From Candidatus Bathyarchaeota archaeon (GTDB taxonomy: Archaea > Thermoproteota > Bathyarchaeia > Bathyarchaeales > Bathycorpusculaceae), in the NCBI GenBank assembly GCA_026014485.1, contig JAOZIE010000001.1:65336-129335 (forward strand): DNA of 64,000 nt, read 5' to 3'. Positions 33,460-36,967 of this stretch are shown here, one piece after another (position 1 is the stretch's first letter; every line of letters begins with the position of its first letter). Position numbers and translations under genes: made by a program. Below the pieces are notes generated by a model. The model searched no databases, had not been told where the DNA came from, and saw only the letters and a list, made by a program, of their open reading frames with translations.

Positions 33460-33867
33460 GTGACAAAGAACTATCAAAAAGAGATCCAAACAAAACTCAC
33501 CAAAGGGCTACTCGACATGATCATCCTGCAATTCCTCGACCAAGAACCCATGCACGGATACCAACTCATCACAAAAATCCGCAAAGGCTTCGGCGTTTAC
33601 TTCGGACCAAGCACAGTTTACCCTCTACTTGGCGCTTTGGAAAAGAAAGGCTACATAACAAGCGCCTGGAACATGGAAACCGAAAGACCACGAAAAGTCT
33701 ATTCGCTCACCAAAGAAGGCGAAACAGTGCTGAATTTCACAGAAGGTTCCCTGAACCTAATATGCAGAACCCTGTCCAACGACACTAAAACCAAAATCGA
33801 ATCAATCCCAGTCAACTCCACAGACCTACAAATCCCAAAGAAACCCTTCGAGTACGCTTCAATCTGA
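33460..33867 (+). CDS. PadR family transcriptional regulator
   Basis: 135 aa. The wing and recognition helix are visible: LLDMIILQFLDQEPMHGYQL, FGPSTVYPLLGALEKKGYI and RPRKVYSLTKEGE are diagnostic of PadR. The C-terminal region is short, as in the PadR-s1 type, with a Pro/Lys tail. Start GTG with CAGGAG 8 nt upstream. PadR repressors bind small molecules or sense stress and usually control an adjacent exporter; here no exporter is adjacent, and the palindromes upstream suggest self-control. Confidence 0.93.
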   Translation: MTKNYQKEIQTKLTKGLLDMIILQFLDQEPMHGYQLITKIRKGFGVYFGPSTVYPLLGALEKKGYITSAWNMETERPRKVYSLTKEGETVLNFTEGSLNLICRTLSNDTKTKIESIPVNSTDLQIPKKPFEYASI

Positions 33868-34179: not shown

Positions 34180-35010
34180 TTACGAGTTCAAGTTTGCGGC
34201 AGCCGTTGCTAAGTCGCATATGTCAACTCTGTAGTTGAAGTTATAGTCCATGTTTTGGTTGTAGTTGCCCCATCCGGGAGAAGCCCCAAAGGCGGTAACG
34301 ATGGTTGAAACGTCGGCTTTAGTCAAGGTTGCAAAGTTGTCGCTATTGTTGATTTTGAAGGGGTTGAACATCTTTGTCGTTATTTTTTGAACCCGCACTG
34401 AGCCATTCAACGAGTCGTCTATGCCTGTTATTGTGAGGGTGAAGTTGCCTTCGCCGCTGGCTATTTTGAATTCTCCGTAGGCGTTGGTGACTAAGGCAAC
34501 TGCGTCTTGACTGCGGTGGAACCCTGTGATGCTGCCTGAACTGTCGGTAGTCACGGTGAAGCTAGAAGTCACGTTGTATACGCTCCAAGTGCCGTTCAGG
34601 AAGAAGCTGTATCCAGTAACGTTTAAGGATGAAACTGAAGCGTTGGTAAGTCTAGCGGTGTAGAAGTTGTAGGTGAAGTTTTCTCTGTCTCTGACCGCGT
34701 TAATTGCCCTAGAAGTGTTGGTTGTCCACATTGCCGTGGCAGAAGAACCTTGACGGATATCAGTGTTGTTAACTACGACTGTTCGCGACTGAACCTGGAT
34801 GGTGCCTGTTACGTTGGTGTCGCCCCACATTGAAATGAAACCGTCTAAACGGACAAAACTCTGCTGCGTTGCGGCGGCATGAGAATTGCCATTACCCATA
34901 TTCTGGAAGGCTTTCCAATGCATGAAGGGCATAGCATAGGCGCTGGCTGCTAAGCTCAGAATGCTCACTGCGATTATTGCGCTCAATATTATGGCTGGAA
35001 TTTTCTTCAT
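34180..35010 (-). CDS. Exported protein with C-terminal dockerin-like domain
   Basis: 276 aa. Signal peptide at residues 1-26 (KKIPAIILSAIIAVSILSLA). The middle is beta-rich with many sequons. The C-terminal 50 residues resemble a type I dockerin: a degenerate first repeat (TKADVSTIVTAFGASPG) and a second repeat with an EF-hand-like loop, DYNFNYRVDICD (Asp1, Asn3, Asn5, Asp9, Asp12), followed by LATAAANL. AGAGGAAAT precedes the ATG. It is divergent from a membrane sensor and a cohesin-like gene, which makes a functional pair likely. Confidence 0.8.
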   Translation of the reverse strand: MKKIPAIILSAIIAVSILSLAASAYAMPFMHWKAFQNMGNGNSHAAATQQSFVRLDGFISMWGDTNVTGTIQVQSRTVVVNNTDIRQGSSATAMWTTNTSRAINAVRDRENFTYNFYTARLTNASVSSLNVTGYSFFLNGTWSVYNVTSSFTVTTDSSGSITGFHRSQDAVALVTNAYGEFKIASGEGNFTLTITGIDDSLNGSVRVQKITTKMFNPFKINNSDNFATLTKADVSTIVTAFGASPGWGNYNQNMDYNFNYRVDICDLATAAANLNS

Positions 35011-35351
35011 TTTTATTTCCTCTTCTGATTTGCCATCACAACCTATCCCCGAGGGGAAATAAAAGCGTTTCTAAGCCCCTTTTTAGATAATAACCTCTAA
35101 AACAGTTTATTTCTGTTTAGAAAAGTTTATTCAGGTTCATAAACGGTTTTAAAGCTGAAATTAAAAGGCGATTACCCTCATAAACGGTTACCGCGGTATT
35201 TAGAAGAAAACCCGAGCCCTCCCGATGAAGTCAAAGCCGCAAACTTGCTAATTTCGCCTTCGCCGCAGCAACAGTTTTCGCGTTGGCAAGCAACGTACAC
35301 GTTCCAATTCTTAAATAAGGTACCCCGCCAATTGTAAAATAAAGGAAAAAC
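35011..35351. promoter_or_regulatory. Divergent intergenic region with a 12-bp direct repeat
   Basis: TCATAAACGGTT occurs at 35137-35148 and again at 35178-35189, 41 bp apart and in the same orientation, about four helical turns. TCCCC-ga-GGGGA (35046-35057, approximately) forms a short palindrome near the dockerin gene. No gene is seen. A regulator, perhaps the membrane-bound winged-helix protein downstream, could bind the repeats. Confidence 0.45.
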
Positions 35352-36305
35352 ATGAAACCTCGCTCCATAATTGTCGCTTTCGCTTTATGCACCATACTGC
35401 TTTCAGCCATTCCAGTTTACATGGCACACGCCGAGAACTATGTGCAGTACGAAATCAAAGTTAACCTCGACGGTTCAGCTGACTGGGTCATCACGCAGGC
35501 GGCAGACCTAAACGGAACAGTCGAAACATGGAACGTTTTCCAACAGAAAATCACAGTTGTCGTTGAAGCTTCAGCGAATTTGACCCAGAGGCAAATGGGC
35601 ATAGACCCCGATTCGCTGCAGATGAGCACCATTTGGGAAACGCAGTCCCACACCACCGAATACCAATTCACATGGCTAAACTTCTCCATAATCCAAGAGG
35701 AACAAATAATATTCGGAGATGTTTTCCGAACCAGCGGGTTCTTCAGCCAACTTTACGGTGACGGCGTACTTGAGGTATCATATCCATCGAACTACACCGT
35801 CCAGTCGGTTTCTCCGCAGCCAAACGGAGGCAGCAGCACCCCTCAAACCCTGAATTGGCTGGGAACCCAATTCTTCGTCAACGGAAACCCCAACATTGAA
35901 CTGGCAGCATCCTCGCTCTCGCCCAGCCCCGACCAAAACGAAAACAACACAGGAGGGCAACTTATCGTCCTGATAGGCGTAGTTATTGCGGTTGCAGTCG
36001 CTGCTTCTTTGGCAGGTTTCTACTTGAACAGACGGCGCCGAAACAAAAACGTTGAAGCAAACAATGCAAAACCCCGTGTGGACCCACCTGTAATCGAGTC
36101 AGAAGAGGAAAAAATTCTAAAACTCATCCAAGCAAAGGGCGGCAGCATGTACCAATCCGACATAACCGACCAGTGCAGGTTCTCTAAAGCCAAAACAAGT
36201 ATACTTTTAACTGCCTTAGAAAAGAAGGGTGTTGTGACAAGGTATAAGAAGGGGCGAGATAAGATAGTGACCCTGATTGTGCAGGGCAAAGGTGAAAATT
36301 CGTGA
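35352..36305 (+). CDS. Transmembrane one-component regulator: exported sensor plus cytoplasmic winged helix
   Basis: 317 aa. Signal-like helix at about 1-26, an extracytoplasmic beta-rich region of about 170 residues with sequons (VQYEIKVNLDGSADWVITQA), a membrane helix at about 200-222, and a cytoplasmic winged helix at about 245-312 (EEEKILKLIQAKGGSMYQSD, then FSKAKTSILLTALEKKGVVT). This type of protein is known in archaea as a membrane-bound MarR-like regulator with an outer sensor domain. The GTGA at its end overlaps the start of the cohesin-like gene, so the two are coupled. Confidence 0.85.
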   Translation: MKPRSIIVAFALCTILLSAIPVYMAHAENYVQYEIKVNLDGSADWVITQAADLNGTVETWNVFQQKITVVVEASANLTQRQMGIDPDSLQMSTIWETQSHTTEYQFTWLNFSIIQEEQIIFGDVFRTSGFFSQLYGDGVLEVSYPSNYTVQSVSPQPNGGSSTPQTLNWLGTQFFVNGNPNIELAASSLSPSPDQNENNTGGQLIVLIGVVIAVAVAASLAGFYLNRRRRNKNVEANNAKPRVDPPVIESEEEKILKLIQAKGGSMYQSDITDQCRFSKAKTSILLTALEKKGVVTRYKKGRDKIVTLIVQGKGENS

Positions 36306-36967
36306 AGGCGAAATGGTATGTTCTCACGATAGCAGTTTTCTGTGTTTTGCTTGTTTTCGCTCAAACGCAGACAGCAAACGCGCAGGCTTCTTCGAATACG
36401 ATTGTAAGCTTGGTTCCTGCCCAAAGCTCCGCTGTTGAAGGCGAAGCCCTCACAGTTAATGTTACAATCAGCAACGTGGAGAACCTCTACGGCTTAGACT
36501 TAGAAGTTGGCTGGAACAACTCCGTCCTTGAGCTGGTCAGCGCCACCCCCCATCTGGGCTCAGGCGCCATGCCAGACGGAGTTCTTTACGGCAACCAAGT
36601 AAGCAGCGACATAACGGAAGGCGACGTTTACGTCAACACATCTTTGTCAACAGCAAACACATACCACCTGTTTGCCACATCCGTGGCTCCAGCATCCTCC
36701 TTCAACGGCAGCGGAACAATAGCCACACTGGTATTCAACGTAACTCAAGGGGGACACTCGGAGCTGACTTTACAGAGCGAACTTGCCGACCACCCCTTAC
36801 CCGAAGAAACAAACTCTGAACTCATAGCCCACACGGATATCGGCGGCTCAGTTGACGCAACAGTGATTCCTGAATTCCCCCAAGTAGCCACGGTGGCATC
36901 ACTGCTGATCGCAGTTACAGTTGCGTTGATGGCGTCCAAGAAAAAACTTCAACAAAGCAGCAACTAA
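36302..36967 (+). CDS. Exported cohesin-like protein with PEF-CTERM tail
   Basis: 221 aa. Signal peptide at 1-28. Residues about 33-150 match a cohesin-type beta sandwich: GEALTVNVTISNVENLYGLD, LEVGWNNSVLELVSATPHL, GTIATLVFNVTQGGHSELTL. The tail has PEFP (about residue 190), a membrane helix and a Lys-rich end (SKKKLQ), the layout of PEF-CTERM substrates processed by an archaeosortase. The start is GTG, overlapping the stop of the membrane regulator. Pairing with the dockerin-like protein upstream is inferred from position. Confidence 0.85.
   Translation: MKAKWYVLTIAVFCVLLVFAQTQTANAQASSNTIVSLVPAQSSAVEGEALTVNVTISNVENLYGLDLEVGWNNSVLELVSATPHLGSGAMPDGVLYGNQVSSDITEGDVYVNTSLSTANTYHLFATSVAPASSFNGSGTIATLVFNVTQGGHSELTLQSELADHPLPEETNSELIAHTDIGGSVDATVIPEFPQVATVASLLIAVTVALMASKKKLQQSSN

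Follow-up and report, generated by a model that had tools for sequence, protein, structure and literature searches.

We identified a conserved three-gene locus in a contig from a Candidatus Bathyarchaeota archaeon (assembly GCA_026014485.1, contig JAOZIE010000001.1, positions 65,336 to 129,335; "the window" refers throughout to this whole analysed stretch of 64,000 nucleotides). A gene for a secreted dockerin-like protein (P0001), on the minus strand, is divergent from two plus-strand genes, which encode a membrane-bound winged-helix regulator (P0002) and a cohesin protein (P0003). An array of four GTTYA units, a candidate operator, lies upstream of the dockerin-like gene. As judged by sequence comparison, the three genes and the array stay together across genera, were duplicated as one and have a promoter architecture in common. 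The module spans about two dozen uncultured Bathyarchaeia species. Taking these features as a whole, we lean towards regarding the locus as a self-contained regulatory module for surface proteins of Bathyarchaeia, in which the array would control expression of P0001, the cohesin would tether this protein, and occupancy of the cohesin would feed back on its supply.

The three open reading frames (ORFs) that a first-pass annotation of the window had reported are present where it placed them, according to ORF calls and translations. The head-to-head layout that it described is likewise as reported, with a two-gene operon in which the GTG start of P0003 overlaps the stop of P0002 by 4 bp. It had further advised a search for the same gene order elsewhere and had named the lack of a conserved neighbourhood in relatives as a refutation; the order proved to be conserved. 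Searches covering 60 relatives, GTDB species genomes, 257 Bathyarchaeia and 398 genomes of the phylum recovered the exact order, dockerin-like gene on one strand and regulator and cohesin genes on the other, as 22 triples in 19 genomes, with two modules in each of three. Another five genomes each hold a rearranged form, which makes 27 loci in 24 Bathyarchaeia genomes. The cohesin is placed behind the dockerin gene in three of the rearranged forms (L116, L117 and L096), a fourth (L118) contains a gene fusion described below together with additional cohesins, and the fifth (L097) is arranged tail to tail. Full-length relatives of P0001 were found only in the gene order of the window, and the genes flanking the module vary between genomes. 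P0003 is the only match to the Pfam cohesin family (PF00963) in its 2.37-Mb genome. Because this sole cohesin lies within an order that recurs in 22 modules, chance is a very improbable explanation of the adjacency. The second modules found in three genomes (L177, L178 and L179 in G171, G164 and G175) form one clade in each of three protein trees (support 100/100, 100/100 and 98/93), and therefore the unit was duplicated or transferred whole.

All of the module intergenic regions have in common an array of GTTYA units at an exact 10-bp period. In the window the four units read, from position 35105 to 35144, GTTTATTTCT GTTTAGAAAA GTTTATTCAG GTTCATAAAC. The best four-unit score is 15 to 20 of 20 in all of the first 17 loci, and in 14 of the 17 it beats every one of 500 dinucleotide shuffles. 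The mean score for these loci is 18.6 of 20 at period 10, versus 12.4–14.1 for all other periods in the range 6–15. Across 100 units the consensus is nearly invariant (G 98 at position 1, T 100 at position 2, T 93 at position 3, C or T 96 at position 4, and A 92 at position 5). Of the 27 loci, 21 have 46 bp between the start of the array and the dockerin TATA box, which reads ATAAAA on the plus strand; in three the distance is 36 bp, or one unit less, and in two it is 44 bp. Since the loci are related, and thus not independent, and the GTTYA unit was defined on the same loci, the spacing in later loci and the genome-wide uniqueness of the array are the safer arguments. The 46-bp spacing seen in the first 17 loci recurs in six of seven later ones (L168 and L174–L179), the other having no matching TATA box. 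The four-unit pattern with at most one mismatch occurs once in the window's own genome, and no further regulon members were found there with it. A scan of 101 genomes gave twelve matches, of which eight, including every one of the six perfect ones, are at the module; a reversed-pattern control gave one match. The four matches outside the module each contain one mismatch and were treated as background given this control. In the second modules of L177, L178 and L179 the array has three sites, with unit 2 missing and units 1, 3 and 4 in register.

The array very probably regulates the dockerin-like gene. Because it is local, single-copy and conserved along with P0002, this protein is quite probably the factor that binds it. 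The first-pass annotation had instead pointed to 12-bp direct repeats between the genes as the target. Both copies are present in the window, and the second is not conserved in relatives. Only the copy that overlaps the array sits at a conserved position, and the repeats were rejected as the operator. The array belongs to the promoter of the dockerin-like gene and not to the two divergent genes alike. We also observed that the core promoter of this gene is conserved as AATAAAAGCNTTTCTRAGC, a longer sequence than a plain B recognition element (BRE) and TATA box; within it, GGCTYAG could mark an additional site. Transcription of the gene is predicted to start near 35034.

P0002 consists of a signal peptide, an outer DUF7345 domain, a single transmembrane (TM) helix and a cytoplasmic DUF7343 winged helix. 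Both Pfam domains exceed their cut-offs (DUF7345, 3.5e-12, 47.1 bits against 27.5; DUF7343, 5.1e-16, 58.7 bits against 27.6), which places the protein among archaeal regulators of the DUF7345–DUF7343 type. With a DNA-binding domain and a TM helix in one protein, it is also a predicted transmembrane transcription regulator (TTR). A Foldseek search with the whole protein returned clear matches to winged-helix and MarR-type structures and weak matches only for the outer domain. Pfam, AlphaFold2 and Foldseek thus agree with the earlier description of a winged-helix membrane regulator. The regulator gene of one module (L112:5001-5807, contig C71 of G163) seems broken, with stop codons and a split match that reflect either a mutation or an error in the assembly, and its neighbours look intact. 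A second regulator of the DUF7345–DUF7343 type is encoded in G051 (L115:3993-4997), among neighbours that include no cohesin, dockerin or array.

The identification of P0003 as a cohesin was upheld. Its Pfam score is 35 bits, exceeding the gathering cut-off of 24.1, and the cohesin profile matches the structures of ScaB and of SdbA-type (type II) cohesins. The PEF-CTERM-like anchor was assigned by reading the motif; the genome contains two exosortase/archaeosortase genes (PF09721), and a search with the NCBIfam PEF-CTERM models gave no match in P0003. The rest of the same genome contains about two dockerin candidates, with three dockerin matches, weak to moderate, in all. One gene (L124:4510-6180, contig C9) encodes a 556-amino-acid dockerin protein with repeats, an Ig-like domain and a two-loop dockerin. 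In G039, a 575-amino-acid scaffoldin-like protein with several cohesin matches is encoded behind the dockerin gene (L096:4109-5836).

P0001 is predicted to comprise a signal peptide, an eight-stranded beta-barrel-like domain and a dockerin-like C-terminus. In the AlphaFold2 model, eight long strands occupy residues 49–213, and the segment after them, which contains two helices, is poorly modelled. The barrel domain had no match in the PDB at E below 1e-3, and only weak matches to barrel or calycin-like structures; neither Pfam nor the fold search identified an enzyme domain in P0001. The relationship to dockerins is most apparent at the level of the family. A profile of the P0001 family matches type II X-dockerin structures (2b59_B, 9.9e-9; 5k39_B, 1.4e-8; 3kcp_A, 3.4e-8), and a profile built from the divergent clade of P0001 alone still matches solved dockerins at 7.4e-4. 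Three of twelve family members match the Pfam dockerin family PF00404, the best at 2.3e-6. In an alignment of 27 homologues, the second F-hand loop largely keeps the canonical pattern of calcium ligands (D-x-N-x-N-x-x-V-D-I-x-D in the window). The ligands of the first loop are lost in the window's clade and better kept in L113, L114, L116 and L118. From this comparison, P0001 is a dockerin by descent that lies outside strict membership of the family.

One genome (G027, JASEET010000004.1, Bathyarchaeia) contains a fusion of cohesin and regulator (L093:7722-8606, the same gene as L118:4446-5330). The 294-residue protein has a cohesin domain (residues 41–167, 1.7e-10), a TM segment and a DUF7343 domain (residues 230–288, 1.1e-16). 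The cohesin thus stands in place of the outer DUF7345 domain, and the position of the regulator in the locus is unchanged. The locus retains the divergent dockerin-like gene and the 10-bp array, which scores 18 of 20 and lies 44 bp from ATAAAC. By joining the two in one protein, the fusion ties the cohesin to regulators of this family in a way that does not depend on gene order, on the evidence of this one genome.

We propose the following mechanism. The cytoplasmic winged helix of P0002 would bind the four GTTYA units as subunits arranged head to tail along one face of the DNA, as the 10-bp period suggests, and would thereby control transcription of the divergent dockerin-like gene. Activation appears somewhat likelier than repression, since the array is upstream of the BRE and TATA box and not over them. 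P0003, produced from the regulator's own operon and held by its putative PEF anchor, would retain the secreted barrel protein at the membrane through the dockerin, and it is reasonably likely that P0001 and P0003 bind each other. In the weakest step, the outer domain of P0002 would detect occupancy of the cohesin, and the resulting feedback would match the supply of dockerin protein to the available cohesin sites. A single lineage has a cohesin as the outer domain of the regulator. We offer tentatively the idea that docking outside the cell is the signal, read either by P0002 from the same operon or, in that lineage, by the regulator with an outer cohesin. Equally provisional is the suggestion that clustered regulators, assembled on a four-site, one-face array, might determine how much of the docking protein is supplied.

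Several observations weigh against this proposal. Dockerins have two F-hand loops, and in P0001 of the window loop 2 is canonical and loop 1 degenerate. P0001 alone does not match PF00404 at E 0.1, and AlphaFold2 confidence in the dockerin segment is low (block means 44–57). The lone cohesin could also be occupied by at least one other dockerin protein, the one encoded on contig C9. The predicted activating role is derived from the position of the array alone, and another factor could bind the array. Moreover, DUF7345–DUF7343 regulators also occur without cohesin or dockerin neighbours (L119 and L115, Methanosarcinales), and the outer DUF7345 domain therefore need not read a cohesin. We use the label "dockerin-like" because the first loop is degenerate and the protein alone has no Pfam match, yet the family profile matches dockerins. 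The first-pass description of P0001 as an exported dockerin-like protein thus stands as to the signal peptide and to dockerin descent, although the protein is divergent and on its own matches no dockerin.

A real possibility is that P0002 controls the dockerin-like gene through the array while DUF7345 senses some other cue, such as a sugar, a peptide or the state of the envelope. The cohesin and dockerin would then be output only, a pair for surface display, in a system comparable to polysaccharide sensing by RsgI. This explanation accounts for the gene order and the array equally well. It is also consistent with the conservation of DUF7345 and its presence in regulators away from cohesins, and with the clostridial sensor, which reads substrate rather than the complex (PMC4711584). 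However, the regulator of G027 has a cohesin on its outer side, so that a dockerin protein is the likely input in that case at least. In addition, the cohesin gene is in the regulator's operon and not under the array-controlled promoter, as expected of a receptor.

It is unlikely that the array serves a regulator encoded elsewhere, with the membrane winged-helix protein acting on other targets. A candidate for such a regulator is a PadR-family gene (PF03551, 3.4e-18) at 33460-33867 of the window, convergent with the dockerin-like gene. This gene adjoins the dockerin-like gene in the window and three close relatives only, whereas other modules carry the array with no PadR neighbour; since PadR is not conserved alongside the array, it was rejected as the array's regulator. 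The occurrence of the array as a single copy in the window's own genome, with perfect matches among the 101 genomes only at the module, is the pattern of a site for a local regulator.

We consider it quite improbable that P0001, its dockerin having decayed, does not dock, and that an older surface-complex locus survives in these three genes only as a neutral relic. The degenerate first calcium loop in the window's clade would fit such decay, as would the failure of P0001 alone to match dockerins, including those in the PDB. Against this, loop 2 is well conserved and related clades retain two loops, and the order, promoter and array are kept while the proteins fall to 30–50% identity, which is not relic-like. 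A small cellulosome-like complex, with the cohesin anchoring a set of degradative enzymes, would fit some outgroup relatives, in which this locus has more than one cohesin domain and indeed several, but it is very improbable and was rejected, as the window's own genome has a single cohesin domain match, no multi-cohesin scaffoldin and few other dockerin candidates, and P0001 has no enzyme domain. The positions of the features that underlie the preferred reading, that of a regulatory module built on a cohesin and its dockerin-like partner, are collected in Table 1.

Table 1. Features of the module and its intergenic region, in window coordinates (aa, amino acids; pLDDT, predicted local distance difference test)
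Feature	Position	Strand	Basis or remark
Secreted dockerin-like protein P0001, 276 aa	34180..35010	-	ORF, translation, AlphaFold2, family profile against PDB dockerins; conserved in 27 loci
Dockerin-like segment (aa 222-274) with a degenerate first F-hand loop	34189..34347	-	Family profile, homologue alignment
Second F-hand loop, D-Y-N-F-N-Y-R-V-D-I-C-D	34213..34248	-	Alignment of 27 homologues
Beta-barrel-like domain, aa 49-213	34372..34866	-	AlphaFold2, block-mean pLDDT mostly about 80-95
Core promoter of dockerin-like gene: TATA (TTTTAT, 35064-35059), BRE-like GAAACGC upstream	35056..35085	-	Conserved in relatives
Array of four GTTYA units repeating exactly every 10 bp, a candidate operator; 46 bp between its start and the TATA box	35105..35144	+	Intergenic comparison
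12-bp direct repeat TCATAAACGGTT, first copy, overlaps array unit 4	35137..35148	+	Sequence search
12-bp direct repeat TCATAAACGGTT, second copy	35178..35189	+	Sequence search; not kept in relatives
TATA box CTTAAATA of regulator-cohesin operon	35310..35317	+	Similar box in many relatives
Single-pass membrane regulator P0002, 317 aa	35352..36305	+	Pfam, AlphaFold2 (mean pLDDT 82), Foldseek winged-helix matches
Outer (sensor) domain, aa 30-186, with DUF7345 matched by Pfam at 64-148	35439..35909	+	Pfam, AlphaFold2 (beta domain)
TM helix, aa 203-233, basic RRRR stretch at end	35958..36050	+	AlphaFold2, alignment
DUF7343 winged helix, aa 250-308	36099..36275	+	Pfam, AlphaFold2 (aa 251-308 in the model), Foldseek
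Exported cohesin protein P0003, 221 aa, GTG start overlapping P0002 stop	36302..36967	+	ORF, Pfam, genome scan
Cohesin domain, aa 41-159	36422..36778	+	Pfam PF00963 2e-8; structures of ScaB and of type II cohesins matched by profile
PEF-CTERM-like anchor: IPEFP, hydrophobic stretch (TM), basic tail	36866..36964	+	Sequence; conserved in homologue alignment

Cohesins and dockerins outside cellulosomes are known from archaea such as Archaeoglobus and anaerobic methanotrophic archaea (ANME), where their role has been called unclear, and archaea with these domains are stated to have no large multi-cohesin scaffoldins (PMC9012536). The present locus resembles them in carrying such modules on archaeal proteins with no cellulosome. 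The first-pass remark that archaeal examples are poorly described is a fair one, with noncellulosomal cases known and discussed in that source; we found in it no regulator or operator that is coupled to them. The open-licence literature, of which coverage was incomplete, yielded no description of a regulator, cohesin and dockerin in combination and nothing on DUF7343; its titles and abstracts on cohesins of Bathyarchaeia or Bathyarchaeota likewise contained no such module.

The nearest solved structures to the dockerin part of P0001, and among the nearest to P0003, are by profile the type II cohesin and X-dockerin pairs (2b59, 3kcp and 5k39), the anchor-type pair of CipA and SdbA. P0001 differs from these dockerins in its degenerate loop 1, in the barrel-like domain that precedes the dockerin in place of an X module, and in its low sequence identity. 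BldC (PMC5859096) and PhoP of M. tuberculosis (PMC4832192) are known to bind direct repeats in a cooperative manner. Unlike P0002 these are soluble proteins with unrelated or only broadly related domains, and the PhoP repeats have an 11-bp period, whereas that of the array is exactly 10.

In Clostridium thermocellum, RsgI and SigI act as biomass sensors, in which membrane-bound RsgI carries carbohydrate-binding outer modules (PMC4711584). The likeness to our module lies in a membrane sensor with an outer binding domain that would control genes of a cohesin-dockerin system. However, RsgI is an anti-sigma factor with a cytoplasmic RsgI_N domain, whereas the cytoplasmic part of P0002 is a DUF7343 winged helix; the module has no sigma factor, and DUF7345 or a cohesin takes the place of the carbohydrate-binding modules. 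ArnR and ArnR1 are membrane-bound one-component activators of Sulfolobus, and share with P0002, as we propose it, the general plan of an archaeal membrane-anchored helix-turn-helix (HTH) regulator acting at a surface-structure promoter with upstream boxes (PMC6396743). ArnR combines an N-terminal HTH with a HAMP-like part and a sensing part and ends in two TM helices, whereas P0002 has an outer DUF7345 domain, one TM helix and a C-terminal DUF7343 domain, and the ArnR/ArnR1 system includes no cohesin or dockerin. TTRs are widespread and mostly single pass (PMC10269533), and P0002 resembles them in combining a DNA-binding domain and a TM helix in one protein. The text of that survey does not mention cohesins, and both the outer cohesin domain and the cohesin operon partner are new here.

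If the proposal is correct, it would provide a rare archaeal case, in the major uncultured group Bathyarchaeia, in which the regulator, the candidate operator (four repeats, 46 bp to the TATA box) and the target gene can all be named from sequence. Cohesin-dockerin pairs are known as the glue of assembly. Here, on account of the operon, the operator-like array and the natural gene fusion, a minimal archaeal pair of one cohesin and one dockerin-like protein is linked to a one-component membrane regulator, which gives the pair a testable role.

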